This document shows, piece by piece, positions 3,524-64,000 of a DNA stretch of 64,000 bases. The notes under the pieces are model-generated. The model saw only the letters and a list, made by a program, of their open reading frames with translations, did not search any database and was not told the DNA's origin. The first letter of the stretch is position 1, and each line of letters opens with the position of its first letter. Both the position numbers and the translations under genes were made by a program. The DNA lies in contig CASFQA010000001.1 of NCBI GenBank assembly GCA_949296775.1, positions 496,001-560,000 of the forward strand. The letters run 5' to 3'. Source of the stretch: an uncultured bacterium (lineage in GTDB: Bacteria; Bacillota_I; Bacilli_A; RFN20; CAG-826).

Positions 3524-3528
3524 GAAAC

Positions 3529-3552
3529 ACCCCCGCTTCGGGGTTTTTCTTT
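3529..3552 (+). terminator. rpmB terminator 1
   Basis: Stem CCCCG / CGGGG with a CTT loop (3531-3543), followed by TTTTTCTTTT, six bases after the rpmB stop codon. Confidence 0.85.
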
Positions 3553-3562
3553 TATATAACCG

Positions 3563-3584
3563 ACCGCCCGAGCGGCGGTTTTTT
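3563..3584 (+). terminator. rpmB terminator 2 (tandem)
   Basis: Stem ACCGCC / GGCGGT with loop CGAGC, followed by six T residues. It abuts the last codon of the convergent membrane-protein gene and probably blocks read-through into it. Confidence 0.7.
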
Positions 3585-4273
3585 CATAAGGCGACGCTTA
3601 TGAGGTAAAGCCCGACCGGGACCAAGACCGAAGTCGGGATCGAGAGGAAAAAGCAAAGCCATTCCGAAAACGCCAACGGGAAAGGGCGCGGGCGCTTGGT
3701 GGAAATCGAGCCATCCTCCTCCATATAGGCGCTTAGCTCGGTCCAGCGCGAGAGCTTCGGGTTCAGCAATATCGAGGCTTTCCCGATGGCCAGGACGACG
3801 TGGGCAATGGCAAGCAGCAGCAAATAAAGAGGCTCATGGAGAGTCGAATAGACGTTAAGCAAGATGATGGCGGAGGTCACGTCGACCATGATCTGGGCGA
3901 CGAAGAAGACGACGGCGGATATGAGATGGCCCCGGAACATAAAGGCCGGGACGATGGTGACCGAGACGACCGCGGCCGAGGAGAGGAAAGCGAAGACGGC
4001 CATGAATATCGATAAGCCGAATAGCGACCCCGACCCGGGGGCGAAAGTCAAAAGCAGGCAGCCGAGGACGGCGAAGGCGCAGGACAGGGAAAGGCAGGTT
4101 TTGGCCGCGATCCCGCTGAAGCGGGAGATCGAGCCGAACTCGAAAGGGAAATCGGTCAGGAAATCATACCGCCTCCCCTCCTTCTTATGATCGGCCCACG
4201 AGAGGAGGAAGTAGAAGAGGAGGAAAAGCAAATAGCCCCCGATCGCCACCGATAAGATAATCTTCGTATTCAT
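3584..4273 (-). CDS. Unidentified multi-pass membrane protein
   Basis: A 229-residue protein with about six hydrophobic segments (residues 4-25, 58-77, 84-111, 117-139, 145-168 and 205-228) separated by short charged loops such as SWADHKKEGRRYD. I do not recognise the family. Its ATG overlaps the rpe stop codon (ATGA), making it the last gene of the gmk-rpe operon. In typical Firmicutes this position is taken by thiN, which it does not resemble. Start supported by the overlap and by the hydrophobic N-terminus MNTKIILSVAIGGYLLFLLF. Confidence 0.6.
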   Translation of the reverse strand: MNTKIILSVAIGGYLLFLLFYFLLSWADHKKEGRRYDFLTDFPFEFGSISRFSGIAAKTCLSLSCAFAVLGCLLLTFAPGSGSLFGLSIFMAVFAFLSSAAVVSVTIVPAFMFRGHLISAVVFFVAQIMVDVTSAIILLNVYSTLHEPLYLLLLAIAHVVLAIGKASILLNPKLSRWTELSAYMEEDGSISTKRPRPFPLAFSEWLCFFLSIPTSVLVPVGLYLISVAL

Positions 4274-4908
4274 AATCTCCGCAAAGCCTCAATCCTTTCT
4301 CGGTAATCCTCGTGGCCATAGAGGTAGGACCCGGCCACCAAGACCTCGGCCCCGGCCGCGGCGGCCCGCCGGGCGGTGGTTCCGTTGATCCCCCCGTCGA
4401 CCTCGATGAGCCAATTATATCCTCTTTCATCCTTTTTCTTTTTCAAATAAGCGATTTTGCCGGTCGCCTCCTCGAGGTAGGTTTGCCCCCCTTTCCCCGG
4501 CTCGACCGACATGACCAAAATAAGGTCGAGATCGCCTAGATAGGGCTCAAGCGACTCAACCGGGGTGGCGGGCTTGATCGAGATTCCGACCTTGCAGCCT
4601 AAGCCGCGGATATACTCGATATCCCCCTTCACGTCATCGCTCGCCTCCAGATGGAAGGTGATCAAAGACGAATGGGGGGCGTAAAGCGCGGCATAGCCCC
4701 TTATGTCCTCCACCATGATATGGGTGTCCTTGAATATATCGACGTCTTCGATCGAAGGCAGGTAGCCGATAAGCGAGGTGACGTTCGGCACGAAGCAGCC
4801 GTCCATCACGTCGAGATGGATGAACTCGGCCCCGGCCTCCTTGACTTTGATCACCTCGTCGCGGAAGCGGGATTTATCGGCCGAAAGGACGCTGGGGGCG
4901 ACGATCAT
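4270..4908 (-). CDS. rpe: Ribulose-phosphate 3-epimerase
   Basis: Interconverts ribulose-5-phosphate and xylulose-5-phosphate in the pentose phosphate pathway. The 212-residue TIM barrel starts MIVAPSVLSADKSRF and has the metal-binding signature HLDVMDGCFVPN (about residue 32), the segment LVMSVEPGKGGQ with the phosphate-binding region, and EVDGGINGTTA with the second catalytic aspartate. Length is typical. It overlaps the kinase gene upstream by an ATGA, consistent with its conserved place after prkC in Firmicutes. The intervening rsgA found in most relatives is absent here. Confidence 0.95.
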   Translation of the reverse strand: MIVAPSVLSADKSRFRDEVIKVKEAGAEFIHLDVMDGCFVPNVTSLIGYLPSIEDVDIFKDTHIMVEDIRGYAALYAPHSSLITFHLEASDDVKGDIEYIRGLGCKVGISIKPATPVESLEPYLGDLDLILVMSVEPGKGGQTYLEEATGKIAYLKKKKDERGYNWLIEVDGGINGTTARRAAAAGAEVLVAGSYLYGHEDYRERIEALRRL

Positions 4909-5780
4909 TTGAAGCCGAAGATCCGCGACAGCAGACCCCTCCGTTCGCCCCGAAAGCTCTCTTTGTCCTTCATCGCCTCCAATATCGCCTCATGCATCGA
5001 GGAGGAGGTTAGGTAACGCTCCTCCGGCCGTTTACGGCAGGCGGTGATGATGATCCGCTCGATCGATTTGGGGAGGGAGGGGACCAGCCGGCTCGGCTCG
5101 GGGAACCGTTTCTTGATTTGCTTTAAGGCCACTTCCTCCAAGTTCTCCCCGTCGAAAGGCACTTGGCCGGTCAAACACTCGTAAAAGACCACCCCCATCG
5201 AGTAAATGTCGTTGGCGATGGAGGCCGGGGCGCCGGTCAATACCTCGGGGGCGCAGTAATAGATCGTCCCCTGGATGGCGTCCCCTTCCTCCGGGGTGCC
5301 GATGGGGGCGGCGATGCCGAAATCGCTGATTTTGATCGTCCCGTCGCTTAAGTAGAACAGGTTGTCGGGCTTGATGTCGCGGTGGATGATCCCATGCCGG
5401 TGGATATAGTCGATCCCGGCGGTGAGCTGGAGCATGACGTCGCAGGCGTCGGTAAGCGAGAGCGACATCGCGAAATTGAGCTTGTCGCGCAGCGTCTGCC
5501 CCTTGATGTATTCATTGGCCATATAGGGCCGGTTATCGACGAACCCCCGGCCATACACCTTGACGATATTGGGGTGGTTCAAACTGGCGGCCGCCGCCGT
5601 CTCGTTATTGAACCGGGCCAAGTTGACCGGGTCCTTCAACAGCTCTTCCTTCATGACCTTAAGCGAGACGATCCGCCGATAGATGAGGTCGTTGGCCTCG
5701 TAGATATCGGCCATGCCGCCCGAGGCGATGCGGGAAGTCACCCGATAACGGGAATCGATCCGATCGCCGATCTTGATCAT
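4905..5780 (-). CDS. PrkC-like Ser/Thr protein kinase, catalytic domain only
   Basis: A 291-residue Hanks-type kinase. Visible motifs: glycine loop IASGGMADIYEA, ATP-anchoring lysine in VSLKVMK, catalytic loop HRDIKPDNLFY, DFG in ISDFGIAAP, and GTIYYCAPEV closing the activation loop. Firmicutes PrkC/StkP proteins normally continue with a transmembrane helix and PASTA repeats that sense peptidoglycan fragments; this protein ends at RRGLLSRIFGFK just after the kinase lobe, so it should be cytosolic. Partnered with the PP2C phosphatase upstream (ATGA overlap). I chose the ATG at 5780 because of that overlap and the usual start IGDRI.DRY. Confidence 0.9.
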   Translation of the reverse strand: MIKIGDRIDSRYRVTSRIASGGMADIYEANDLIYRRIVSLKVMKEELLKDPVNLARFNNETAAAASLNHPNIVKVYGRGFVDNRPYMANEYIKGQTLRDKLNFAMSLSLTDACDVMLQLTAGIDYIHRHGIIHRDIKPDNLFYLSDGTIKISDFGIAAPIGTPEEGDAIQGTIYYCAPEVLTGAPASIANDIYSMGVVFYECLTGQVPFDGENLEEVALKQIKKRFPEPSRLVPSLPKSIERIIITACRKRPEERYLTSSSMHEAILEAMKDKESFRGERRGLLSRIFGFK

Positions 5781-6523
5781 GGTTTGCAAGCCTCGAAATA
5801 GGCGATGGCGATGTTATCCGACCCGCCGGAGGCGTTGGCTTCCTCGATGAGGGAGGCGACTTTCTCATCCGGCCTTTCATCGCCGGAAAGGATGGCTCGG
5901 ATCTCCGATTCGGGGAGGTTGTTGTATAGCCCGTCGGAGCAGACCAAAACCGCTTCCCCGGCATAAGGATGGACCCCGATTTCGGCCGAGGAGGAAGGAT
6001 AGATGCCAAGGGCGTTGAGCAAGACGTGCCGATCCTCCCGCTTATTGGTCTCCTCGAAGCTGATCTTCCCGGTCCGATAAAGGTAATCGACGTAGGTCTG
6101 ATCGGTCGAGAGGCGGACCAATTCATGGCCTTTCAGCCAATAAGCCCGCGAATCGCCGACGTTGGCGATATATAGATGCTCGCCGCTTATTAAAGCCAAG
6201 CAGCAAGTGGTCCCCATATCGTGGTAACGCTCGTTCCGGTTAGCTTCGTTATAGATGAGTTTATTGGCCCCCTTAATGACCCTAGAGAGCCACATCTTCA
6301 GCAAAAACCTTGGCAATTTGGGCTTTTTATCGAAAGCCTCGACTAAATAGTCGCGGGCGAGCTTGGAGGCGCAGTCGCCTTTGTTCTGCCCTCCCATCCC
6401 GTCGCAGACGAGCAAAAACACCTCGCCTTGGCTGTTGGTCAAGCTGGCGGCTTGGTCCTCGTTGGCGATCCGGACTTTGCCGACGTCGGTTTTCGATTCA
6501 AATGCCCCTTTGTACCGTTTCAT
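5777..6523 (-). CDS. prpC: PP2C-family protein phosphatase, PrpC-type
   Basis: Removes phosphate from Ser/Thr proteins and is the usual antagonist of the PrkC kinase. The 248-residue protein carries the PP2C motifs: N-terminal RIANEDQ, metal-binding VCDGMGGQNKGD, GDSRAYWLK, LSTDQTYVDYL, VLVCSDGLYNNL and ASGGSDNIAIAY with the metal-binding aspartate. The start at 6523 overlaps the rlmN stop codon as ATGA; an upstream extension would be read inside rlmN. Length is typical for PrpC. Cytoplasmic, with probable substrates including the kinase encoded next to it. Confidence 0.95.
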   Translation of the reverse strand: MKRYKGAFESKTDVGKVRIANEDQAASLTNSQGEVFLLVCDGMGGQNKGDCASKLARDYLVEAFDKKPKLPRFLLKMWLSRVIKGANKLIYNEANRNERYHDMGTTCCLALISGEHLYIANVGDSRAYWLKGHELVRLSTDQTYVDYLYRTGKISFEETNKREDRHVLLNALGIYPSSSAEIGVHPYAGEAVLVCSDGLYNNLPESEIRAILSGDERPDEKVASLIEEANASGGSDNIAIAYFEACKP

Positions 6524-7563
6524 TGTTTTCTCTCGTATTTGACCCTCAGTTGGCCGCAGGCGGCGTCGATGTCGCCCCCGAACTCCTTCCTGACCGTGGC
6601 GTTGATCCCCTTTTTGAGCAAGGCGTCGTGGAAGCGGCGGACGTTTTCCTTGGGCGAGCGCTTCCACTTCATCTCCTTCACCTCGTTATAGGGAATCAGG
6701 TTGACGTAGGCGAAGAGGCCGTTGTCATGGATAAGATGGGCCAGCTCATCGGCGCATTCAAGCGAATCGTTCACCCCCGATAAAAGGATGTATTCGAAGG
6801 TGACCCGTCTCCCGGAGGAGGCGAGGTAGTCCTTGATCGCCAAAACGAGCTTATCCAGCGGGTATTTCAGCGACACCGGCATGATTTTGTTCCGGATCCG
6901 GTCATTAGGCGCGTGGAGGGAGATGGCGAGGTTGGTCTGCAGCCCCTCTTTCCCATAACGGACGATCCCCTCGGGCAAACCGCAGGTCGAGACGGTGATG
7001 TGGCGGGCCCCGATGGCCAAGCCGGCTTGGCAATTGGCGATCCGGATGAATTCCATCACGTTGTCGTAATTGTCGAAGGGCTCCCCGGTCCCCATGACGT
7101 TGATGTGGGTGACCCGGGCCCCGTATTCGGATAAAACCTGGTTCATGACCAGCAGCTGGCCGACCATCTCGGCGCTGGTGAGCCCGCGTTGTTTCTTAAG
7201 CAGCCCCGAGGCGCAGAAAGCGCACCCCATCGAGCAGCCGACTTCGCTGCTCACGCAGATCGGGCAGCCGTAGTCATAAGGCATCATCACCTCTTCGACC
7301 TTGGCCCCGTCCTCCAGCTGCAAAAGCAATTTGACGGTCCCGTCGCTTCCGATTTGCTTGGCGATGATCGAAGGGAGGGTCAAGCAGAAATCCCGCTTCA
7401 ACTCCTCCCGGAAAGAAAGCGAGATATCGGTCATCTTGTCGAAGTCCAGCACCCCTTTGCCGTAAACCCAGCTGAAAAGCTGCTTGGCGCGGAACTTGCT
7501 TTGCCCCCGGGAAAGGAAGCAATCGGTCATCCGTTCGAGGGAATAGCCGAGGAGGTTCTCCAT
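6520..7563 (-). CDS. rlmN: 23S rRNA (adenine-2503-C2)-methyltransferase RlmN
   Basis: A 347-residue radical-SAM enzyme that methylates A2503 of 23S rRNA and, in this family, also A37 of some tRNAs. It shows the iron-sulfur motif CSMGCAFCASG, the segment NVMGTGEPFDNYDNV, TVSTCGLP and FEYILLSGVNDS, and the C-terminal catalytic cysteine in DIDAACGQLR. The N-terminal accessory domain includes FRAKQLFSWVYGKGV. Full length. It sits directly after the rsmB-like gene (9-base gap) and overlaps prpC, the usual Firmicutes order. Confidence 0.97.
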   Translation of the reverse strand: MENLLGYSLERMTDCFLSRGQSKFRAKQLFSWVYGKGVLDFDKMTDISLSFREELKRDFCLTLPSIIAKQIGSDGTVKLLLQLEDGAKVEEVMMPYDYGCPICVSSEVGCSMGCAFCASGLLKKQRGLTSAEMVGQLLVMNQVLSEYGARVTHINVMGTGEPFDNYDNVMEFIRIANCQAGLAIGARHITVSTCGLPEGIVRYGKEGLQTNLAISLHAPNDRIRNKIMPVSLKYPLDKLVLAIKDYLASSGRRVTFEYILLSGVNDSLECADELAHLIHDNGLFAYVNLIPYNEVKEMKWKRSPKENVRRFHDALLKKGINATVRKEFGGDIDAACGQLRVKYERKQ

Positions 7564-7572
7564 TCTTCCCTC

Positions 7573-8895
7573 CTACTTGGCGGAAGCGCAATGGGCGGGC
7601 TCGCTCGTTAAGGCGCTCATCTCCCCAAAGGGGACGGCGATCGAGGCGACTTTCGGCCCTAAGGACAATTTGGCGTAATAGCAGGCGCAGCCGTATTCGT
7701 CATAGGGGAAATGCTGCTTTTCCTCGACCAAGGTGAATTCGCTATGCTTGGAAAGGAATTCGGCGACGGCGTTATGTCCTTCCTTCTTGGAGATGGTGAG
7801 GACGCAATAGATGAGGGTCCCCCCGTCCTCGACGTAGGAGGCGCACCCTTCCAAAGCCTTGGCTTGGTTGGCGATGACCTGATCCATCCTTTCCTTATCG
7901 TAATGGAGGAAGAAATCCGGGGTGGTGGCGACCGAATCGAAGCCGGTCGAATCGGGTAAGCAGAAAACCAGCTCGGCCTTCGAGGAGATATAGGCCTCCA
8001 TCGCGGTCGGGTCGGCGATTTGGAAAAGGTTGACGTTCCGGAGCCCCAGCTGCTTGATGAGCCGCTTGGCCTCGAGCAAATCGTCCTCGTTCGGGGTGGC
8101 GATGTTGACCATGACCTCGTTGAGGTAGGAGGCGATGACCTCCTTATCGGCCCCGCCGTTGTCCTTCCCGCAGTATAAGACGACCGAGGAAGGGGCGCTC
8201 ACTTTGTTGTCGTCGAGCAGTTTCTTGACGATCGGGCGGATCTCATAGGCGTGCCGGTCTTTGATCGGGGGCAAGGTCCGCAAGGCGGCTTTGCCCGAAT
8301 AGGCGTAGACGTCGCTTACCGAAGTCGGGGTGAAGTCCTCGTTATGGCGGAGGTCATCGGTCTCCGGGACGTTGCGGAGGCGGACGAAGGGCTGATAAGG
8401 CCGGGCGAACCGCTTGATGGTCTTATAGGTGTTCGAATACCCGAAATGGTGCATGATCTTCAGCGCCCAGATCGGGACGTTATAACGGAGGGAGAGGTAT
8501 TCGAGCGAGGAATGGTCGATCCCTTCGGGGATGTAGGACTCGGCGTGGCCGGCTTTATCCAATAAGGGCAGGCACCGGGCGAACTTCTCTTCCCCGAGCG
8601 CTTCCTTCAGCTCGGCGTCGATCTCCTCTTTCGGGAAATGGCGGAAATAGAAATCGTTGGCCAAAACGAGGCAGAGCATCTCTTTCTCCCCGTCGGTCAA
8701 GTCGAGGTTCTCGCAAAGCTTCTCAAAGAGGATGTCGTGGCGCAGCTCGCAGCCGACAAGCCCCGCCACTTCCTTCCGATAAGGCCGGAGCTCGACGTTT
8801 TTCTGGAACATCGCCTTCAGGGCCTCCCCGAAATAGACGTTGTCGTTTTTGACGCTGTGCAGGATCTGCAAGGCTAAGTCGAATTCTTTGCGCAT
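7573..8895 (-). CDS. RsmB-like protein lacking the catalytic cysteines (probable pseudoenzyme)
   Basis: A 440-residue protein in the rsmB position. The N-terminal 130 residues look like the NusB-like domain and the rest like the RsmB methyltransferase fold: residues 355-385 read EDGGTLIYCVLTISKKEGHN, matching the GG.LVYSTCS...EEN region, and the end reads CACYYAKL like RsmB FFYAKL. The key motifs are altered. Motif IV (DAPCSGTG) is CLPDSTG at 312-318 with the cysteine position occupied by proline. Motif VI (YSTCSI) is YCVLTI at 363-368 with leucine at the nucleophile. The SAM loop (CAAPGGKT) is CGKDNGGADK. A GGAGGAAT site supports the start. It may bind 16S rRNA without methylating it; this is inference. 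Confidence 0.7.
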   Translation of the reverse strand: MRKEFDLALQILHSVKNDNVYFGEALKAMFQKNVELRPYRKEVAGLVGCELRHDILFEKLCENLDLTDGEKEMLCLVLANDFYFRHFPKEEIDAELKEALGEEKFARCLPLLDKAGHAESYIPEGIDHSSLEYLSLRYNVPIWALKIMHHFGYSNTYKTIKRFARPYQPFVRLRNVPETDDLRHNEDFTPTSVSDVYAYSGKAALRTLPPIKDRHAYEIRPIVKKLLDDNKVSAPSSVVLYCGKDNGGADKEVIASYLNEVMVNIATPNEDDLLEAKRLIKQLGLRNVNLFQIADPTAMEAYISSKAELVFCLPDSTGFDSVATTPDFFLHYDKERMDQVIANQAKALEGCASYVEDGGTLIYCVLTISKKEGHNAVAEFLSKHSEFTLVEEKQHFPYDEYGCACYYAKLSLGPKVASIAVPFGEMSALTSEPAHCASAK

Positions 8896-52009: not shown

Positions 52010-53434
52010 TTATATCGAAGGGGGAATTTCCTTAAACATCGTCGGCAAATCAATCAGATGAAGACGGGGATCGTCAAGGGAAAGAAGCGAATCATCAAAC
52101 CCGCCCGCCCCGAACAAATACAGCTCAACCTGCTTATAGGGACGGAAAGGCTCGGCTTTAAGGTCTTCCAGCATATCGTAATAATCTCGAATAGTCCGTT
52201 TTTTGCTGGAAAATTTCATTTCGGCTAAAAGCAGATGGGATCTCTCAGCGCTTACCGCGTCAACTTGTACCGACCGCCCAAGGGCTTTCGAATCAAACTC
52301 AAAGTTTCGGAAATCAACGAATAAACCGTTTAAGCGCCCGTTCTTGCTCAAATATTCTAGATAGGTAAGGCATAGCTTCTCGTAGGCGTGGCTTAGGAAA
52401 TTCGCAATGCCATCTTCGTCCTCTTTCCATAGCCTTTCCCCAAACCCTTCGGCGATAAGCCCCGCGTTTTCCCGAATGAATCGATAATAGAAAGCCAACA
52501 TTGGATCAAGGATCTCATAACGTACTTTCCGTTCTTTTTGGAAAAAACCTCTTTTGATTATGACCCGATCGGATAATAGAGGCTCAAGGTATTTGCTGAC
52601 GTTTCCGCTGGAGAGATTGAGCCGTTCCGAAAGGGCCATAACCGTGTCGAACCCTTCGGCGATACCCTTGAGTATGGAGGCGTAATAACCGCCGGTTATG
52701 ATATCGCTGGTGATTATTTCGCCGGGATTTTGGATGAAAAGGGAACTCCGTTCATAAAAAAGATGGACCAAGTTTTCATCGAAGCTCTTGTTCTGATCGA
52801 TAAGCGAAAGATAGAAAGGGAAGGTATTGGTCATAGACAATATCTTTGCCTTTTCGAAAACATCCTCAACCTTCCTAACGCCGAGGAGAGCTTCGTCGAA
52901 CTCAAACTTGAGCAAGCGAAGGGAGAAGGTATTGCGACGGTAGAGTGGCGCCCCGTAATCCCCTATCTCCTTTTCCATAAAAGAGACGTTGCTGCCCGTT
53001 AGAATCAAAACAAAACGTCTTTTGAGGAAAAGACTGTCGATGGCATGCTGTAAAGCCGATGCGAAATCAGTCCTTTTCCGTTTGCCATCGCGCCCAACGA
53101 CGATATTCGGATATTCATCAATGCAAACGATTCCCTGATCGTCCCCGAAATAATCGTCGATAGCAGAAAAGAAATCGGGCCAGGATTCGTAACTGCCGCC
53201 TGAAAACCCCCGAGCTTCATTCAAAGTTTTTGAGAAATATCTACGAATATCGGAATCGCTGGAATCGGTCGCGCGTAAAATAATGGACTTTTTTCCCTGA
53301 CAGAACATAGAAAGCAACGTCGATTTTCCGATTCGCCGTTGTCCATAAAGATAGCCAAATTCAAAACGGAGGGAGTCGTAACGTTGTTCCAGCAAGGCCA
53401 ATTCTTTGAACCGACCATAATTTTCTAAGCCCAT
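52010..53434 (-). CDS. AAA-family ATPase with DUF234-type C-terminus
   Basis: A 474-residue ATPase of the prokaryotic/archaeal ATPase (STAND-related) family. Walker A is YLYGQRRIGKSTLLSMF, Walker B GIVCIDEYPNIVV and the sensor motif LILTGSNVSFM. The middle has a winged-helix-like region (VMALSERLNLSSGNVSKYLE), and the end resembles DUF234, a restriction-endonuclease-like fold: YEILDPMLAFYYRFI and HLLLAEMKFSSKKRTIRDYY. Substrate unknown; such proteins are common in mobile or accessory regions. AGGAGGTATCGC precedes the ATG. Its upstream region carries unusual palindromes. Confidence 0.8.
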   Translation of the reverse strand: MGLENYGRFKELALLEQRYDSLRFEFGYLYGQRRIGKSTLLSMFCQGKKSIILRATDSSDSDIRRYFSKTLNEARGFSGGSYESWPDFFSAIDDYFGDDQGIVCIDEYPNIVVGRDGKRKRTDFASALQHAIDSLFLKRRFVLILTGSNVSFMEKEIGDYGAPLYRRNTFSLRLLKFEFDEALLGVRKVEDVFEKAKILSMTNTFPFYLSLIDQNKSFDENLVHLFYERSSLFIQNPGEIITSDIITGGYYASILKGIAEGFDTVMALSERLNLSSGNVSKYLEPLLSDRVIIKRGFFQKERKVRYEILDPMLAFYYRFIRENAGLIAEGFGERLWKEDEDGIANFLSHAYEKLCLTYLEYLSKNGRLNGLFVDFRNFEFDSKALGRSVQVDAVSAERSHLLLAEMKFSSKKRTIRDYYDMLEDLKAEPFRPYKQVELYLFGAGGFDDSLLSLDDPRLHLIDLPTMFKEIPPSI

Positions 53435-53457
53435 GCGATACCTCCTAAACCTTACTA

Positions 53458-53553
53458 AGACGTTTTCGCCAAAACGCTTCCTCGATATTATACACAGGAA
53501 AAATGGCGACAAAATATTTTTTAGCGAAAACGTTTTCGCCGAAAACGTCTTCG
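53458..53553 (-). promoter_or_regulatory. ATPase promoter flanked by LacI-type operators
   Basis: -10 TATAAT on the minus strand at 53487-53492. A perfect 16-bp palindrome GCGAAAACGTTTTCGC lies at 53524-53539, joined to an imperfect one CGAAAACGTCTTCG (53540-53553). A half site ACGTTTTCGCC (53460-53470) repeats downstream of the -10 box; it is also part of an inverted repeat CGTTTT-CGCC-AAAACG (53461-53476). A central CG between A and T runs is typical of LacI-family sites. Confidence 0.65.
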
Positions 53554-54704: not shown

Positions 54705-55976
54705 TCAGATTCCTCTTTTCAGCTTGAAGTGGCTTTCGAGGTCGTCGCGTTCGATGGCGATGCCCTCGCTTAGCAAGCGGGAGCCGCTGGAGGAGATGGA
54801 ATACATATCCTTCAGCCGGACGGCGATATCCTCTTTGTCTAAATACAATCCGACGTTCAAAGCCACCACGTCCCCTTCTTGGAGGGTCATTCCCTCGTAA
54901 TCCTCGTTCAATTCGAGCCCGACGAAGGAAATGACCTTGGGGAAGGTAAGGAGTTTTATTTCCTCGGGGTTCACGATGATCTGCTCCTTCAAGCACCTTT
55001 CCTTCAATAGCTCCCGGGCGAATTCATTGACTTTATCAAGGCTAAGCAAAGGCCGGAGCAAGGCCCCGGTTTTCCTAAGGCATTCGAGGACGATCGAATA
55101 GACTAGCGACTGGCGGTCGTTGAACTTCCCGTCGACCGGGACGGTTCGGGCGATATAGGCGCAATAATGCTCGTCGCGGGCATTGACGTCGAAGACCACC
55201 GTCTGCCCTTTCCGCACCTTTTCTTTCATCTTGCGGGTAGCCAAGCAATTGGCCTCGCTCCCTTGGGCGATGAAAAGCGGCTCCGCCAACCCCGAAAGCC
55301 CGGAGGTCGATTCGCAGGAGGCGAGGTAAGCCAGGCCGAGGTCGTACTCGTAAACCCCTGGGGAAAGCAAAGCATAGGCGCTTAATAGACCGTCTTTGAC
55401 GTGGCTGATGGCTTTTTTGATCGATTCGAGTTCCTCGTCGCTTTTGTTTTTCCTAAGCGGGGCCACCAACGGGCGGACCGGCTTGACCAGCAAAGAGGGG
55501 TAGACGGCCTGCAAAGCCGAAGCGAAGGCCTTGGCGTCGAGCTCCCGATCGACTTTCAGTTCGGGGCTCAAATCGAAATACCCGATGTTGACCGGCGATT
55601 CCTCGTCGATCCCCTGCCGGAGGAGCCGGTCGAGGCGCGAGGAAAGATAGGCCGAGAGCATGACGTTGTTGATGCCCGATATCCGCCGGGCTTCCTCTTG
55701 GGAGAGCCTTTTCCCGTACCAGCGCCTCTTTGCTTCGTCATATTGGTCGATGAATAGGATGGTTCGGGTCTCCCCGCCCCGCTTGATGAGCAATAAAGAC
55801 GATCCCTCCTGCTCAATCCCGGTCAAATAATAGAAATCGGCGTTGACCTCAAACGGATAAAAGGTGGTTGAGGACAGGTATTTGGCCCGGCCGGAGAAGA
55901 AAAGGGCAAAGGATTCGTCGTCCATTTTGGCATAAACGGCGTTGCGTCGGTTTTCAAGTTCGTTGAGGCTGCTCAT
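54705..55976 (-). CDS. Xaa-Pro aminopeptidase-like (M24) protein lacking metal ligands
   Basis: A 423-residue member of the M24B peptidase fold: N-terminal creatinase-like domain with FALFFSGRAKYLSSTTFYPF, then a pita-bread domain. The five metal ligands of PepP are largely lost. The family segment DAGAEYNGYASDITRT reads DVNARDEHYCAYIART (263-278), keeping Asp263 but with Tyr274 in place of the second aspartate. The His segment HWLGLDVHD reads SFVGLELNE with Ser350. The Glu positions are Asn374 in ALNVGLYL and Lys389 in VRLKD. So it is probably not a peptidase. It precedes the PTS-like gene and is downstream of yigZ. Confidence 0.75.
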   Translation of the reverse strand: MSSLNELENRRNAVYAKMDDESFALFFSGRAKYLSSTTFYPFEVNADFYYLTGIEQEGSSLLLIKRGGETRTILFIDQYDEAKRRWYGKRLSQEEARRISGINNVMLSAYLSSRLDRLLRQGIDEESPVNIGYFDLSPELKVDRELDAKAFASALQAVYPSLLVKPVRPLVAPLRKNKSDEELESIKKAISHVKDGLLSAYALLSPGVYEYDLGLAYLASCESTSGLSGLAEPLFIAQGSEANCLATRKMKEKVRKGQTVVFDVNARDEHYCAYIARTVPVDGKFNDRQSLVYSIVLECLRKTGALLRPLLSLDKVNEFARELLKERCLKEQIIVNPEEIKLLTFPKVISFVGLELNEDYEGMTLQEGDVVALNVGLYLDKEDIAVRLKDMYSISSSGSRLLSEGIAIERDDLESHFKLKRGI

Positions 55977-56051: not shown

Positions 56052-56654
56052 TCATTTTTCCTCGACGAGGGAGAGGAATCTCTCGCCTAGGGGCAAGCGG
56101 AGCCCCTTCCCCTCGAGTCGCTCCCCCAAATTCTCGTCGCTTAATAAAGACAACTCAACCCGTTCCCCGAATACCGGTTCGGAAATATCGAAACCGAGCC
56201 TTGGCCCGAGCCGAACCAAGGAGTCGTAAACGGCGTAATCGACGTTTAAACGATATCGATAGCGTTCCTTCGCCACCGCTGCCTTGGCGTTAAAATAGGC
56301 TTGCTTCCCGGCTTCTACTACCATCCGCCGGAGATTGCCGACCCCGAGTTTGACGCCTCCAAAGTAGCGGGCGACGATTAATAAGCCATAGGCGTTTTCG
56401 CTTCGAAGGTATTCCAATAACGGCCGACCTGAGGAGCCGCTTGGCTCCCCATCCTCGCTGAACCCTTCGCTGCCATCGAGCCGGAAAGCGTAAGGGATAT
56501 GGTGGGCTTTATGGTGCAGGGCGCGGATCCTCGCCAATTGGGATTCAAGTTCTTCTTTGCTTAGGCAAGGCAAAGCGAAGGAAAGGAAAGAGGAGCCAAG
56601 CATGCTAACTTCCCCGGCGCCTTCTTCGGTTATGACCTTCTCGCCCTCTTTCAT
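56052..56654 (-). CDS. YigZ/IMPACT family protein
   Basis: A 200-residue protein beginning MKEGEKVITEEGAGEVSMLG. The first domain has the family motif HHKAHHIPYAFRLDGSEGFS, followed by EDGEPSGSSGRPLLEYL, then VARYFGGVKLGVGNLRRMVV, typical of UPF0029/YigZ (IMPACT) proteins, which are linked to translation and ribosome-associated functions, with no defined activity. C-terminal domain is ferredoxin-like. Its ATG overlaps the stop codon of the giant gene (ATGA), so it is co-transcribed with it. Length is typical. Confidence 0.9.
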   Translation of the reverse strand: MKEGEKVITEEGAGEVSMLGSSFLSFALPCLSKEELESQLARIRALHHKAHHIPYAFRLDGSEGFSEDGEPSGSSGRPLLEYLRSENAYGLLIVARYFGGVKLGVGNLRRMVVEAGKQAYFNAKAAVAKERYRYRLNVDYAVYDSLVRLGPRLGFDISEPVFGERVELSLLSDENLGERLEGKGLRLPLGERFLSLVEEK

Positions 56655-59600
56655 GAAATAGCGATTGAGGCGTAACTGGCCAAGCCTTCCGCCACCTTAA
56701 CAAAGTTGACTTGGCTGCCCTCAGCTTTGAAATCCTTGTATTGGGTCAAACTGGACAAACTCGGATTCGAGGCGATACCAGAATAAGGCAAGGACAGATA
56801 GAGATAGCTTGAGAGCATCGCGAGTTCTTCTTTGCCGCTTACGAAGACGGTGCCTTCCTGCGCATAATCGAAGTAGGAATCGAGCGTCTTCAAAGCCTCT
56901 AACCCCTCTCGCCCTAATTCGGGTGAATTAGAGGCGATGCGGTCGTCGGTGAAGGCATAGGCCATCAGATTGCCGTAGAAGACCTTTTGGGCCGATCCTT
57001 CGTAAATGAGTTCCATCCAGTCATCATCATAGAAAGAACCGAGGTTTTCGTAATAATCTGCCGTGATATCGGCATTGGTATATAGCCCAGACGGATTCGC
57101 CCCGTTAGTTCCTCCTAGCCCAACGATGACGTTATGGTTAATATAATCGGTACTCACCAGGACGTTATAGATGGCGTCCATCTCCCCGGCCAAGACGTTA
57201 TTGAAGAGGACCGGATTGCCAATCGAGGCTCCCGTTTCGTCGACTGACGCAAAGGGCGAGAAGGCATCGACGGCGGTAACCATCGGAATCCGGGCGCTTT
57301 GATTAAGTCCGATCAATGCCATATAGACCTTTTCGTTAGCCGTCGGATCATCGCCTAATCCGTCGGTCAAGGATTCGATCGCCAAGACGTAGCCCTCAAC
57401 GAAGGCGAGGTCGACGATATGGTCATCGACGTAAAGGGAATCGGCGGTTAAGTCGGGATAAGCTCCCTCTTGGCCAAGCGCGGAATTTAGGGCTTTGATG
57501 GCCCCAACCATCGAGCGGTCATCCTTATCGAGCCGATTGAAGATCGAAGCCTTAGGCGTTTCTTGATAGGCGGAAGAGTCGAATTTCAGATCCAAGGTGA
57601 AGATGTGGTAAAGCGCGTAGTCGCGGCTATTGAAGGTGTTCGCCGAACTATTGGTGGTCGGATAATAAGCGTCGGAATCCGCATCGTAAGCGACCGGGTT
57701 TTCGAAGATGCTCGTTTGCTGCATATAGGTCAAAAGATCATAGGTGTGATGGCCTTCCTCGGTGAAGGCGGTCATGACGTCATAGCCATCGGGGACGGAG
57801 CCGAAGTCGAAGTAAGAGCCGCCTTGGCCGTCTTCCCCTTCGGCGTAAATGCTCTTTAGGAGATTGATGATCAAATCGATATCCTTCTTCCCCAGCTCAG
57901 CTTGGGTATAGCGATAGCTCGAAAGGTCATAGGTGAGTTTCACCTCCAAAGGCTCATTGGCGGTGAATACCAGGTGGCCGCTTAAGGCCGAGACGTCGAT
58001 GTTCTTCGGATCGGAAGTAACGATGAAATCGGTGTAATCGATATCCAAATCAGTGGCCTTAAGGGAATATTCCGAAGGTAATTTATCGAGGCTGATCGTC
58101 AAAGGATGGCCGCCGGAAACCATATTGCCGGCGACTGCCCCGAGGTCATAGACGTAGTCTACCCCAACAATAGCAGGTTCGACCGTCAAAGCCTCTTCCG
58201 GGCGGGTGAATTTGGTGAGCCCGACCGAGGAAAGGACGTCTTGGAGGGCGTTAGGCAGGATGTCGCTCCCTAGATCGAGCTTATTGAGGGCGAGGAATAT
58301 GTCCTCCAAATCATCCGGCGGCAAATTCATGATCTCATCGCCGGAGAAGGTCAAAGCCCCGTCCTCATCGATGAAGCCGGAACGGAGGAAGACGGTGAGC
58401 AGGCCGCCGCCTTGCCCATCGTCGGTCAGGTTATTGATTTCCTTGGTCCAACCGGGCCTCCTTTGCTCTTTTATCTGCTGATAGAGCTTCTCCTGATAAC
58501 CGGCTTCCTTATGGGTGAGGTAAAGGGCTGGGTCGCCTTCAAGGCTATAGTTAAGCGAAGCCAAAGACGAATCGTCATAAACGGTGTAGATGAGCTGTTC
58601 GAAGACCGTCAGGTCATCGAAAACGAATTGGCCTTCGTTCCAGCTGGGCCCTTGATAATCGGCAACGACTAAGACCCCGTCATTATGGAAGACCCGGGAG
58701 TTGTACATGTCGGTGAGGATCTCGCGGAAGGTGACCGGATCGATGGATGAGAGGTTGGTCAAGTTACCGAGGGCCTCGCTATTGCGGGACAAATTCGAGA
58801 GAATCGAGGACAGTTGATAAATCTCGCTCTCCTCGAAGCGGTTGGCGTAATCGGGGGTGACGAGCATATTCCCGTCTTGATCGTAATAATAGGAGAAATA
58901 GACGTTGGCTTTGGTGAAGTCGATGCCCTCGATTAAGAAATCCGGCTGATTCAAAGTCGAGTCGATGATGTTGGGGACGCAGTCGTAGAAAAGCGGGGAG
59001 TCGTTTAAGGCTTTGAGCAAGTCGACGAAGAGGTCGGGCCGGATGGAGGAGAAATCGAAGACCCCGTTGCTATTGAGAAGAGGCTTGACCTCATCGGATT
59101 GGAAAAGTGTCAGCAAGGAAAGAAGCGATCCTTCATCCCCATCGAGCAAGAGGGCTTGTTGATCCAATTCGTTTTCATTCCCGTCATAAAGGGTCGGGAA
59201 GGCCTCCTTAACCAAATAGATGGCTTTGCCGTTGGCGAGGTCTACGGGGTCATATTGCGAATAAAGCACATTATTGGCCAAGTCTTTCGGCGAGCCGGCG
59301 CCATCTTCGCCAACGTAATAGAAATACTGCTCCAAGGCCTCGATCGAGACGATCTGCTTGATGAGCCCTTGGAAGGCGTTGAGGCCGGTGGCTTCGTTAT
59401 GTTTGTTTCCGTTGAATAGGCCCGAGCGCATCATCTGCTCCAAGGCCAAGGTCAGCTCCTCGGCGTCGATCGAGGAAAGGTCGGCGAGGTCGGTCGAGGA
59501 AAGGGAGGATAGCGATCCCATCATATTGACTAGATAATCGATCTGCTCCTCGCCATACGGGGCATAGTCTTTGGCCCCGTTATCGGAATAGGCGGTGAAG

Positions 59601-62600
59601 AAGGGGTCGACGTCAGCGAGGAATTGCCCCATCTCCCCTTCGATCAACGGCTCGCCCGATTCGGGGAAGAAGACGTCGTTGAGCAGCTGCGGCAAGGCCC
59701 GGTAGAACAGCTTCGAGCCGTCGAGGGCCGAGAGCATGGTCTTGAGCTCCCTCCTCTTAGCCTCGGCGTTGCTCGCGAAATAAGAATCCGGGGAGGAGAG
59801 GGCGCTGAAATCAAGCTCCCCGCCCTCATCGATGAAGGAGGAGGACTGGATGGTGTCGATGAGGAGGCAAAGATTATCGATCTCTTTATCCCAATCTTCG
59901 ATCCCCTCGACGATCTTGGCGATGGTCATGTCGGTATGCTCTTGGTCAAACAAGGCATCGGCTTTGTCCTCGATCGCCTCGTCGATCCCGTAAATCCCCG
60001 ATTCGATCAGGATGGTCTCAGCCAATTGCTTGAAGACCGGGGTCTTTTCCGATGAAGGGGCTTGGTTAAGCAAATGGCTTTCGCTGGCCCCGTCCAATAA
60101 TGGGCGGAGGAGGAAATCGGTCGAAAGGCTCGAGAGGGAAATCCGGCTGGCGTCGAGCTGCCCGTCCTCATTCACGAGCCCATAAGACGGATCGAGGAGG
60201 ACGGCGAAGACGGAAAATAGGTTGGAAACCTCATCGACGTTAGCCTGCCGCTCGACCTCGGTTAAGGGCTCATAATGCCCGGATACAGGATCGGCATGGA
60301 GGAAGTATTGGTAGTTGACGGCGGTGAGATCGATCGGGGAATCCTCCGCCCCCTCCATCTCGGCGAAGGCGTTCTTCAATCCGTTATAGAGGATGACCCG
60401 GCCGAGGGCGCGGCTTTCGGCGACCCCGATCAAGGCCTGCTCCATTGAGGGCAGGTTATCGAAGTCGAGGCTGGACAATTCCTCAACCCCGCCGAGCTCG
60501 CCCAAGGAATCCAAGACCTTGCTGAGCCGGTCGATCTCGCCTTCATCCCCGTTCCAATCGGATTGGCGGGGAAGCTGCTCGACCATATCAAGCCGGAGCA
60601 AAGAGGTGGCCGCTTGCTTTTGCTCTAAGGTGATTAAGGAAGCGACGTCGCCTTCGAAATCCGGGTCAAGGAAATACTTCAGCGTCTCCCCATCCATCGA
60701 TTGGAGGAGTTTGTTGTAAAGATATTCGGGGAAGACGTATTCGCTCACGCCGTTTTCGGTATAGGTGAAGATGCCAGACCCAGACAAAGCCTTAAGCAAG
60801 TCGCCGAGCTCAGGCCCGAGGGCGAAGAAGTCGAGGTCGGATAAATCCAGCCCCTTGGCCGCTAAGTCGATGACTTTTTGGAACGCCGCCCCTTCGACGG
60901 CCCAATCGGTGACGTTGGCAAAGCTGATCGGGAGGTCGAGCCCATCCTCGCCCCCGACGCCTAATATCGGAGCGACCAAATACCCGTCTAACGCCCCGCC
61001 GGCGAGCTTGGAGAGGATAACCGAATCGCCGATGGCGGCGAAGACGTTATCGATCCGCAAGCCGGAAAGCTGGCTTAAGGCGTTGGCGGTGTTGCCGTTG
61101 CTGAGCGAATCGAGCTTATCGAGCACCCCGCTCCGGAGGACGGCGCAAAGGGCCTCGACCAGATAATAGGTCTCCCCTTTCGGCTTCGATTCATCGATGT
61201 CCCCCTCGATCCAAGAGGAAGTCAGGTTCCCGATGCCATCGATGTCCTCGAAGGTGAGTTCAGTGAAATTGCCGTTATCGTCGATTTGCGCGATTAACGA
61301 ATTGATAAGCCCGCAGAAGTTCGCGTTTTTCACCTCATTCCCGTTTTCGTCTAAAGTCACCGGATTGAGGACTTTGGAGTTAAGGAAGGTGTCGAAGATA
61401 TAGCAAAGTTCGTCCTGGGCTTGCAGAAGGAAGGAACCCATGGCCGCGGTCCCCATTTTGGAAATGGCGGAGAAAGAGGATACCAATAAGGGGCAGTATT
61501 TGGCCATCTTCAATATGTTCGCGGCCTCATGCCCTAGGTTCGGGGCGTGGAAATCGAGGGTCTTGATTCCGTATTCGCTTAAATCGAAATCATCCATGGT
61601 CGATTCCAATAATCCCGGCAAGGCGGAAGAGAGGATGACCGAGTGGTCGATGGTCTCGCAGGTGGCGATCAAGGCGTCGAGCAATTCCGGCTCGATCGAA
61701 TTGAGGTTACCCTGCGGGTCGTAATTGACGCCGGGCTGGGAGGCGGGATCGAGGAGGAATTCCCTCCCGGATTCCGAGGAAGCGAGCTCGGCGGCGATGT
61801 CCATGATGGCCCCGAACTCCTTTTTGAAATTGATCCGGGTCGCCCCGATGTCCCCTTCCGCGACCAATTCCTCATTGGCGGCCCCCAAATCCAGCTCAAG
61901 GTTGCCTTGGCTCGCGATAATCGGCTCGACGGTCGGCAGGAGGTCGTCGAGGGCGTTGCCGATCAAAACCGAATCGAAGAGGTTTTTCTTGCCTTTGGAG
62001 ATGCCCGTTTCCGGGTCGACGTCGGTCGGATTGCCGTCCTTATCCCTTAACCCGACCAAAACCTGGATCACTTGATCGGGGTGATCGATGACCATGGTGA
62101 GCAAGGTCCCGAGGATCCCCCCACCGAACAATTCGTCGCCACCCTCTTCCGTAGAAGACGAATCGCCATCGAGGCTTTGGAACTCGGCGGTCGACCCGAG
62201 CCCATCGAACATCTCCTTCATCGCCTCGCGGTCGATGTCGACGAGGGAGTAGAAGGAATCGTAGATGATCCCCAGCTCGTTGAACCAAGAGATCTCGGCG
62301 ATTTGGCCGTAATCGGGCGCGGCATCCTTATCCGGTTGGATGAACATCTTCAGGCTGAAGCCCTCCCCTTCGGTCCCCGCTTGGTTTTTCGCCATCGTGT
62401 AGACCATGCCGGCGATGAGATGGTTGATGAAATCCCGATCGGCTTTGCTTAAGGCCGAATGCATGGCTTTGTAGGCGTCTTCATCCTCGAAGATGCCATA
62501 AAGCTGGCTGAGGTTATAGACCGGGACTTGGGACACCTCGTCGGCGATGACCTCGAAGAAACCGGCGTTAAGCAAGTCGACGTAGACAGCGCTCAGATTA

Positions 62601-63778
62601 TTGAGCTCATCGACCCAATCGTAATCCTGGGAAGAAAGGTAGCCGACCGCATCCTCGCCGAGGAAGGCTTTGGCTTGATCCATATTGAGGGCGATGGCGA
62701 CGGCGACCGGCAAAACGGTCTTCACCAGTTCGACGTTGGTGAGCTTGCTTATGAGGTTCGGGATGATCATCGAGGCCAATATGGAGTGCCAAGCGACCCC
62801 GTCTTCCCCGATCATGGCCATGACTCCGGAATTAAGGACCGCGGTCCCGACGTCGGCGACCGAGGCCAATTCGCTGATGATATCGACCTTCGCTTCCCCG
62901 GCCTCGGTTTCGGTCAAAAAGGAAATCAATTTGGAATCGAGCGTCTCGCTGCCGTCATTCCGGGTCCAATTGAAGAAAACCTTGGCGAAAGTCGAGTTGT
63001 CGTAAGCGTCCAAAACGTCATAGATCATCCCGACCGTTTCATCGGATTTGGCTGAGGATTCATCGATTTGGAGATGGTTGTTCACCGTATTGACCAAGGC
63101 GGTGAAAGGGGAAAGGAGCATGACCATGATAAGGCCGCCGCAGACGACGTGTTCGAGCCCCGATACCCACCGGAGCTTTCTTTTCCGCCGCTTTTTATTG
63201 ATGACCGGCTCCCCGTCGGGCCCATCGGGGTATTCGGTGACCTTGACTTTCCGGTTGAAGAGGAATTTGAAGCAAATATGCCATAAAAGCCAAGCCAGCA
63301 ACGAGCCGACGACCATGATGATGAGCCCTTCGATGAAGATGAGCACCAGCTTAACGGTCGAGGAGGCTAAGGCGGTGGCATAGACCACGATATCCTCAGC
63401 CGAGGCCGAAACCCCGTAATGGAGGAGCAATTGGGTGAAGAAGTCGGTTAAAGTCTCCGATAAGGTGGTGACCGAGACGGTAATCGTCGCCCCCTCGATA
63501 TCGATCGATATAGTTGACAGCCCCACTTGCCCGGCGATCGAGGACAAATCGAAGCCGGCGAGCATATCGCCAAGCGGGGAGACGGTCAGCATCCCGATGA
63601 CGCATAAGCCGCCGAGGAAAATAAGGTGATACGTCCCATACCGCCAGCCATGGAGCAAACCCCAAAGGAAAAGGAAGACCAAAATGCCGAGCACGCCGAA
63701 GAAAGCGGCGGTTAAGCCGATGTCGAGGAATTCCAATAGCTGTTCCGAATCGATTTCCAAAAGGGCACTCAAGTTCAT
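56651..63778 (-). CDS. Giant membrane-anchored repeat protein of unknown function
   Basis: A 2,375-residue protein starting MNLSALLEIDSEQLLEFLDI. The N-terminus has four membrane segments (about residues 22-42, 49-69, 140-172 and 210-230) with an intracellular basic stretch NKKRRKRKLRW between the third and fourth; the remaining 2,100 residues would then lie mainly outside the membrane. They are acidic and contain at least nine degenerate units of the form LSSID..EL..LL.AL..S.LF, for example DLFVDLLKALNDSPLFYDCV, ELTLALEQMMRSGLF, TFREILTDMYNSRVF and RRELKTMLSALDGSKLFYRA. A beta-rich segment (EYSLKATDLDIDYTDFIVTS) interrupts them. No known family is recognised. I prefer the ATG at 63778, nine bases after a CATAAT box. 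Confidence 0.75.
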   Translation of the reverse strand: MNLSALLEIDSEQLLEFLDIGLTAAFFGVLGILVFLFLWGLLHGWRYGTYHLIFLGGLCVIGMLTVSPLGDMLAGFDLSSIAGQVGLSTISIDIEGATITVSVTTLSETLTDFFTQLLLHYGVSASAEDIVVYATALASSTVKLVLIFIEGLIIMVVGSLLAWLLWHICFKFLFNRKVKVTEYPDGPDGEPVINKKRRKRKLRWVSGLEHVVCGGLIMVMLLSPFTALVNTVNNHLQIDESSAKSDETVGMIYDVLDAYDNSTFAKVFFNWTRNDGSETLDSKLISFLTETEAGEAKVDIISELASVADVGTAVLNSGVMAMIGEDGVAWHSILASMIIPNLISKLTNVELVKTVLPVAVAIALNMDQAKAFLGEDAVGYLSSQDYDWVDELNNLSAVYVDLLNAGFFEVIADEVSQVPVYNLSQLYGIFEDEDAYKAMHSALSKADRDFINHLIAGMVYTMAKNQAGTEGEGFSLKMFIQPDKDAAPDYGQIAEISWFNELGIIYDSFYSLVDIDREAMKEMFDGLGSTAEFQSLDGDSSSTEEGGDELFGGGILGTLLTMVIDHPDQVIQVLVGLRDKDGNPTDVDPETGISKGKKNLFDSVLIGNALDDLLPTVEPIIASQGNLELDLGAANEELVAEGDIGATRINFKKEFGAIMDIAAELASSESGREFLLDPASQPGVNYDPQGNLNSIEPELLDALIATCETIDHSVILSSALPGLLESTMDDFDLSEYGIKTLDFHAPNLGHEAANILKMAKYCPLLVSSFSAISKMGTAAMGSFLLQAQDELCYIFDTFLNSKVLNPVTLDENGNEVKNANFCGLINSLIAQIDDNGNFTELTFEDIDGIGNLTSSWIEGDIDESKPKGETYYLVEALCAVLRSGVLDKLDSLSNGNTANALSQLSGLRIDNVFAAIGDSVILSKLAGGALDGYLVAPILGVGGEDGLDLPISFANVTDWAVEGAAFQKVIDLAAKGLDLSDLDFFALGPELGDLLKALSGSGIFTYTENGVSEYVFPEYLYNKLLQSMDGETLKYFLDPDFEGDVASLITLEQKQAATSLLRLDMVEQLPRQSDWNGDEGEIDRLSKVLDSLGELGGVEELSSLDFDNLPSMEQALIGVAESRALGRVILYNGLKNAFAEMEGAEDSPIDLTAVNYQYFLHADPVSGHYEPLTEVERQANVDEVSNLFSVFAVLLDPSYGLVNEDGQLDASRISLSSLSTDFLLRPLLDGASESHLLNQAPSSEKTPVFKQLAETILIESGIYGIDEAIEDKADALFDQEHTDMTIAKIVEGIEDWDKEIDNLCLLIDTIQSSSFIDEGGELDFSALSSPDSYFASNAEAKRRELKTMLSALDGSKLFYRALPQLLNDVFFPESGEPLIEGEMGQFLADVDPFFTAYSDNGAKDYAPYGEEQIDYLVNMMGSLSSLSSTDLADLSSIDAEELTLALEQMMRSGLFNGNKHNEATGLNAFQGLIKQIVSIEALEQYFYYVGEDGAGSPKDLANNVLYSQYDPVDLANGKAIYLVKEAFPTLYDGNENELDQQALLLDGDEGSLLSLLTLFQSDEVKPLLNSNGVFDFSSIRPDLFVDLLKALNDSPLFYDCVPNIIDSTLNQPDFLIEGIDFTKANVYFSYYYDQDGNMLVTPDYANRFEESEIYQLSSILSNLSRNSEALGNLTNLSSIDPVTFREILTDMYNSRVFHNDGVLVVADYQGPSWNEGQFVFDDLTVFEQLIYTVYDDSSLASLNYSLEGDPALYLTHKEAGYQEKLYQQIKEQRRPGWTKEINNLTDDGQGGGLLTVFLRSGFIDEDGALTFSGDEIMNLPPDDLEDIFLALNKLDLGSDILPNALQDVLSSVGLTKFTRPEEALTVEPAIVGVDYVYDLGAVAGNMVSGGHPLTISLDKLPSEYSLKATDLDIDYTDFIVTSDPKNIDVSALSGHLVFTANEPLEVKLTYDLSSYRYTQAELGKKDIDLIINLLKSIYAEGEDGQGGSYFDFGSVPDGYDVMTAFTEEGHHTYDLLTYMQQTSIFENPVAYDADSDAYYPTTNSSANTFNSRDYALYHIFTLDLKFDSSAYQETPKASIFNRLDKDDRSMVGAIKALNSALGQEGAYPDLTADSLYVDDHIVDLAFVEGYVLAIESLTDGLGDDPTANEKVYMALIGLNQSARIPMVTAVDAFSPFASVDETGASIGNPVLFNNVLAGEMDAIYNVLVSTDYINHNVIVGLGGTNGANPSGLYTNADITADYYENLGSFYDDDWMELIYEGSAQKVFYGNLMAYAFTDDRIASNSPELGREGLEALKTLDSYFDYAQEGTVFVSGKEELAMLSSYLYLSLPYSGIASNPSLSSLTQYKDFKAEGSQVNFVKVAEGLASYASIAIS

Positions 63779-63787
63779 ATAGGGATA

Positions 63788-63816
63788 ATTATGGTGGGCC
63801 GAAGGCCAAACCTCAA
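63788..63816 (-). promoter_or_regulatory. Promoter of the giant protein-yigZ operon, near-leaderless
   Basis: Minus strand: -35 TTGAGG (63811-63816), a 17-base spacer and -10 CATAAT (63788-63793), nine bases before the ATG at 63778. No Shine-Dalgarno site. Confidence 0.6.
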
Positions 63817-63840: not shown

Positions 63841-64000
63841 TCAGCAAACGTATATATCGACTAGATCCAGCCGGTCAAACGCGATTGAGCAGCCGGTCAA
63901 AGACAGGAAGAGGAGGGACAAGAGGACGATGGGGATATAGGAGAGCATCCTCCTTTTAATGGCCCCGATAAACCGGAGAAAAGCCAAAAGCAAAACCGCT
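63841..64000 (-). CDS. C-terminus of an unidentified membrane protein (partial)
   Basis: An open frame enters from the right edge and ends at 63841. Reading in: AVLLLAFLRFIGAIKRRMLS, then a hydrophobic stretch YIPIVLLSLLFLSLTGCSIA, ending RLDLVDIYVC. Two hydrophobic segments separated by IKRRM suggest membrane helices. An internal ATG preceded at once by AGGAGG could instead start a 35-residue lipoprotein-like peptide with LTGC. Too little is visible to decide. Confidence 0.4.
   Translation of the reverse strand, partial: AVLLLAFLRFIGAIKRRMLSYIPIVLLSLLFLSLTGCSIAFDRLDLVDIYVC

Follow-up and report, generated by a model that had tools for sequence, protein, structure and literature searches.

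The window, by which we mean the whole 64,000-nucleotide stretch of DNA analysed here, encodes a giant protein of 2375 aa, in which a CvpA-like membrane base is followed by a long, acidic array of repeats. We infer, with somewhat more confidence than doubt, that this protein is a surface scaffold or adhesin, anchored in the membrane, dispensable and subject to recombination. As a wider and more tentative proposal, it may represent an undescribed class-wide family in which a CvpA fold anchors giant recombining helical-solenoid ectodomains, providing a display route for lineages without a wall or sortases. The genome containing the window (1.52 Mb, 96% complete, 10 contigs) has named relatives, including Candidatus Alloenteromonas pullicola and pullistercoris, that are uncultured gut Bacilli. 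The coordinates and length originally given for the reading frame were correct on recheck, and the features of the region are as follows.

54705-55976, minus strand: pepP, aminopeptidase P (PF05195, 1.9e-25; PF00557, 1.8e-21)
56052-56654, minus strand: yigZ/UPF0029, the next gene after the giant (PF01205, 1.4e-22)
56651-63778, minus strand: giant protein gene; 2375 aa, starts with ATG, stop codon overlaps yigZ by 4 nt; orthologues found
57545-63049, minus strand: repeat array of the ectodomain, residues 244-2078; some 14 copies, each of about 120 aa
57885-58110, minus strand: possible beta-rich insert, approximately residues 1890-1964, separating the final two repeats; from sequence only
63072-63778, minus strand: CvpA-like four-helix membrane base, residues 1-235; from hhalign to standalone CvpA and AlphaFold2 (AF2) helices
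63779-63816, minus strand: near-leaderless promoter-like sequence; TTGAGG, 17 nt, CATAAT, 9 nt, ATG
63842-64000, minus strand: 3' portion of a gene for an HTH-XRE membrane protein, which extends past the window (L030:7842-8357)

The membrane base resembles CvpA

Hydropathy analysis confirmed the four predicted N-terminal membrane spans (approximately residues 20-38, 52-70, 130-162 and 205-229), and AF2 placed helices at residues 11-43, 45-64, 127-173 and 203-235. The base has a G-x3-G motif at G40/G44 and a basic loop at about residues 172-204, between spans 3 and 4. When a profile of 18 giant N-termini was compared with 20 standalone CvpA proteins of the same order, hhalign gave 97.1% (E 4.9e-11) over 198 columns covering the four-helix domain, while control comparisons of the N-terminal profile gave 0.5% for TraX, 7.6% for CPBP/Rce1 and 0.2% for PTS EIIC. 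The profile also matched, at 3e-4, the standalone CvpA encoded in the window's genome, and the giant shows the four spans and the glycine-basic-glycine turn after span 1 by which we judged likeness to CvpA. PF02674 (CvpA/Colicin_V) matched 3 of 18 relatives (best E 7e-6), and the order member G041:C140 scored 23.4 bits, under the Pfam curated cut-off of 29.3 bits; the window protein was without a match to this model, and Pfam gave nothing above cut-off when it was searched alone. Because the curated cut-off was not reached, the base is named CvpA-like here and not a CvpA. Nonetheless, the profile comparisons lend good support to the base being a remote relative of CvpA. Thus, the original statement that no family could be recognised holds for names, as the window protein and its family have none in the Pfam, NCBIfam and PADLOC searches, but not for the N-terminus.

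Both the giant and CvpA have four membrane helices, arranged in the same order, with a basic, glycine-rich turn following span 1 and a basic loop preceding span 4. They differ in that the giant adds about 2140 residues, predicted to be extracellular, and its genome also has a normal CvpA. Other candidates for the membrane region were rejected: EI24/CysZ and VTT families gave weak matches only in the Pfam search, and Spiroplasma Scm1 (NF033571), a different gene, matched the membrane region of three relatives weakly in NCBIfam (best 2e-4), at 20 of 150 bits and thus far under its cut-off. PDB sequence searches with alignments A1 (the N-terminal profile) and A5 returned nothing credible. Note that short CvpA-like frames of 252-305 aa also matched the giant N-terminal profile (G035:C6, G136:C11, G093:C1, G108:C15, G066:C1 and G113:C1); they may be intermediate between CvpA and the giants.

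The strictest conservation was found in the membrane base and the segment just after span 4 (G44, P224, Y259, S262 and D281), suggesting that this region does more than anchor the protein passively. Such conservation would suit a CvpA-type transporter or envelope-stress component, in which the base does the work and the giant ectodomain senses or captures substrate. EHEC and Vibrio need standalone CvpA to resist deoxycholate, and a role in export has been proposed there (PMC6705877). One member of the family also gave a weak match (E 0.004) to residues 41-121 of MarP in the family model of this serine protease. MarP has a membrane domain and then an extracytoplasmic domain, whereas the giant's ectodomain is a predicted repeat solenoid with no protease match. 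However, the genome retains a separate standalone CvpA, no pore or catalytic motif was seen in the giant, and 0.7-6 kaa of variable repeats are not needed for transport, so that we consider a transport or stress function rather unlikely.

The ectodomain is a degenerate array of helical repeats

The ectodomain contains 356 D/E against 114 K/R in 2140 residues, in agreement with its predicted acidity. Aligning the orthologue profile with itself gave matches at E values from about 1e-21 to 1e-18 that were shifted in register by about 235 and 450 residues, and weaker ones shifted by about 115 residues. An iterated repeat HMM placed 14 copies, each about 120 aa long, in the window protein, 23 in a relative of 3907 aa and 7 in a relative of 1019 aa. 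Because such iteration can overfit, the HMM was retrained on units from other families only; it still found 11 copies with a score of 204 bits, whereas the best of 200 shuffles scored 6.5 bits and the reversed sequence gave no match. The degenerate helical repeats predicted originally are therefore real and pass the comparison with shuffled sequence, but the unit is about 120 residues in about 14 copies and not 15 residues. The motifs first noticed lie at residues 991-1836, each being one helix of the larger unit, and the register shifts of about 115 and 235 residues rule out a fifteen-residue repeat.

The structure of residues 1040-1890 was predicted with AF2 (pLDDT 82.7, pTM 0.75) and was mostly helical with short strand pairs; the repeat array is thus modelled as a helical solenoid. 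Note that this model stops short of the possible beta-rich insert. Foldseek searches of PDB and viral libraries gave no match with E <=0.001. The best, insignificant fold matches (E 0.028 at best to a solved solenoid) were to HEAT/ARM alpha-solenoids, namely karyopherins, spliceosomal SF3B1-type chains and beta-catenin, but no HEAT/ARM/TPR repeat family model matched the sequence in Pfam and the giant's unit is about 120 aa, so this modelled likeness shows resemblance and not membership. Self-BLAST in ten giants gave no matches indicative of recent tandem duplication. We found no adhesin or carbohydrate-binding domain in the giant, nor the combination of LPXTG, C-terminal span and basic tail that marks sortase-anchored surface proteins; the protein has no C-terminal span and ends in ...ASYASIAIS.

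Proposed arrangement at the cell surface

In the arrangement that we favour, the four-helix CvpA-like base would sit in the membrane and be followed by the 2140-residue acidic repeat ectodomain. An N-out/C-out topology is suggested by hydropathy together with the basic loop that separates spans 3 and 4; it would place the ectodomain on the exposed membrane face, and surface display is likely. The protein might then serve as an adhesin or scaffold that binds mucus, ions, other cells or the host; the repeats would be its variable binding and spacing part. Of the surface scaffold proposed originally, the membrane-anchored acidic protein with helical repeats stands, and the scaffold role is what we infer from it. 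Among the closest described counterparts are Giant1-5 of Apilactobacillus kunkeei, very large extracellular proteins with helical repeats in Giant1-3 that are diversified by intragenic recombination (PMC12863079). Compared by description, those of this lactic acid bacterium differ in having beta-solenoid N-terminal domains (Giant1-4) and alanine-rich repeats (PMC12863079).

Distribution of the family and relation to the cell wall

The N-terminal profile matched 82 of 117 genomes of the order and 66 of 198 genomes of the class, and the family is present in many genera of Bacilli. Most of the matched frames were about 0.7-6 kaa, with a minority of 250-600 aa, and the giant's repeat number and length vary between relatives. 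The repeat model matched the fetched relatives; the sole listed zero was L126, for which the longest frame was used and this frame is not the giant. We know of no agreed function for CvpA, and a widespread family joining a CvpA-like base to a giant ectodomain offers a fresh way to approach the role of this fold; its unnamed repeats also form a large family that could be curated and studied structurally.

The genus of this genome presumably belongs to RFN20 in GTDB. The lineages in question are uncultured Bacilli common in the gut, and some of them are predicted to lack peptidoglycan and sortases; specifically, a survey predicted two RFN20 families to be peptidoglycan-deficient and RFN20 to be without sortases, and inferred that such Bacilli display few surface proteins (PMC10868615). 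The present family suggests another route of surface display, in which the CvpA-like base would stand in for the sortases and wall anchoring reported missing in such organisms (PMC10868615).

In searches for peptidoglycan genes, whose controls were positive in 10 of 14, PBP transpeptidase (PF00905) had no match in this genome and FtsW/RodA (PF01098) none in 31 genomes of the genus. The family was commoner in PBP-negative (45/104) than in PBP-positive genomes (21/94) of the class sample (Fisher p 0.002, uncorrected for phylogeny). These absences and this association would be expected of a load-bearing coat that replaces peptidoglycan in wall-deficient cells. However, neither wall condition is required, since 21 PBP-positive genomes carry the family, and several members of the genus have neither the giant nor FtsW. 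With an association only and clear exceptions on both sides, we rejected the giant as a wall substitute, and a coat of this kind appears improbable.

The giant gene recombines

We compared the window gene with its two nearest relatives, L031 and L032, counting nucleotides from the giant's ATG. L031 was 93-99% identical to L032 over the first half of the giant and the upstream flank, and then 91-97% identical to the window up to nt 8053, through the giant's end and yigZ. Specifically, L031 was window-like at nt 3525-8053 (1082:74 sites; approximately L031:10711-15239) and L032-like elsewhere (183:1428), a mosaic seen in one MAG. Near the first breakpoint, the three sequences shared an identical run of at most 17 nt, and near the second no identical runs of at least 15 nt occurred; such short runs argue against a short-read assembly chimera, without excluding it. 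Exchange of the C-terminal half of the giant between closely related species by recombination is thus well supported by the sequence comparison, and this recombination may be neutral. The dN/dS was 0.08-0.22 over residues 1-1805, a sign of coding constraint, and 0.40-0.63 beyond residue 1805, the latter on small dS. The L032 copy is broken at L032:9198-9298 between frames of 1093 and 1235 aa, by either decay or an assembly error.

A very large, patchy and recombining protein might also act in inter-bacterial antagonism or defence, but PADLOC gave no match, neither Pfam nor NCBIfam revealed a toxin domain, and no match to the giant was found on phages or plasmids, making this role very unlikely.

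Genomic neighbourhood and start site

Where enough sequence was available, most loci carry thioredoxin - TraX - zinc-ribbon CPBP protease in this order, divergent from the giant, and the giant side reads giant - yigZ - (NBP35) - pepP - (EIIC) - glpK. Orthologues keep the yigZ neighbour: yigZ lay downstream of the giant in all loci of this type that were checked and have sequence at that position. All of the 12 giant-less genomes checked keep the conserved order with the giant simply missing, although one of them (L167) is without a recognised CPBP gene. Since two other genera (L044 and L045) carry the giant at the same site, repeated loss is the simplest reading. These clean empty sites strongly support that the giant gene is dispensable in relatives.

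The proposed operon with yigZ is borne out by the overlap of 4 nt (ATGA) between the giant's stop and the yigZ ATG, but has little functional meaning; the link is positional, because yigZ-pepP persists without the giant in 12/12 genomes. A yigZ-pepP functional unit including the giant, e.g., in protein quality control, would explain the overlap and the constant adjacency, but is largely refuted by these empty sites and by the relative L046, in which the giant instead lies near mutS and mutL, and is hardly credible.

The HTH-XRE membrane protein gene listed above occurs at this site in three close relatives only; its homologue in L031 matches PF01381 at 1e-10. In addition, window positions 52010-53512 encode an ATPase_2/AAA_14 protein with a DUF234 domain; most relatives lack this gene, and L031 and L032 have one of similar size at the same place.

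The near-leaderless promoter predicted for the giant is real, with CATAAT ending 9 nt before the ATG, but is a genus-wide habit and not specific to the giant. Of 174 ORFs in the genus loci, 35 had a -10-like hexamer whose end lay 6-11 nt upstream of the ATG (e.g., at window positions 63779-63816 and 16797), against 1-10 ORFs in the other 6-nt bins. Relatives outside the genus had no such peak near the ATG, and within the genus these counts suggest that near-leaderless starts are frequent.
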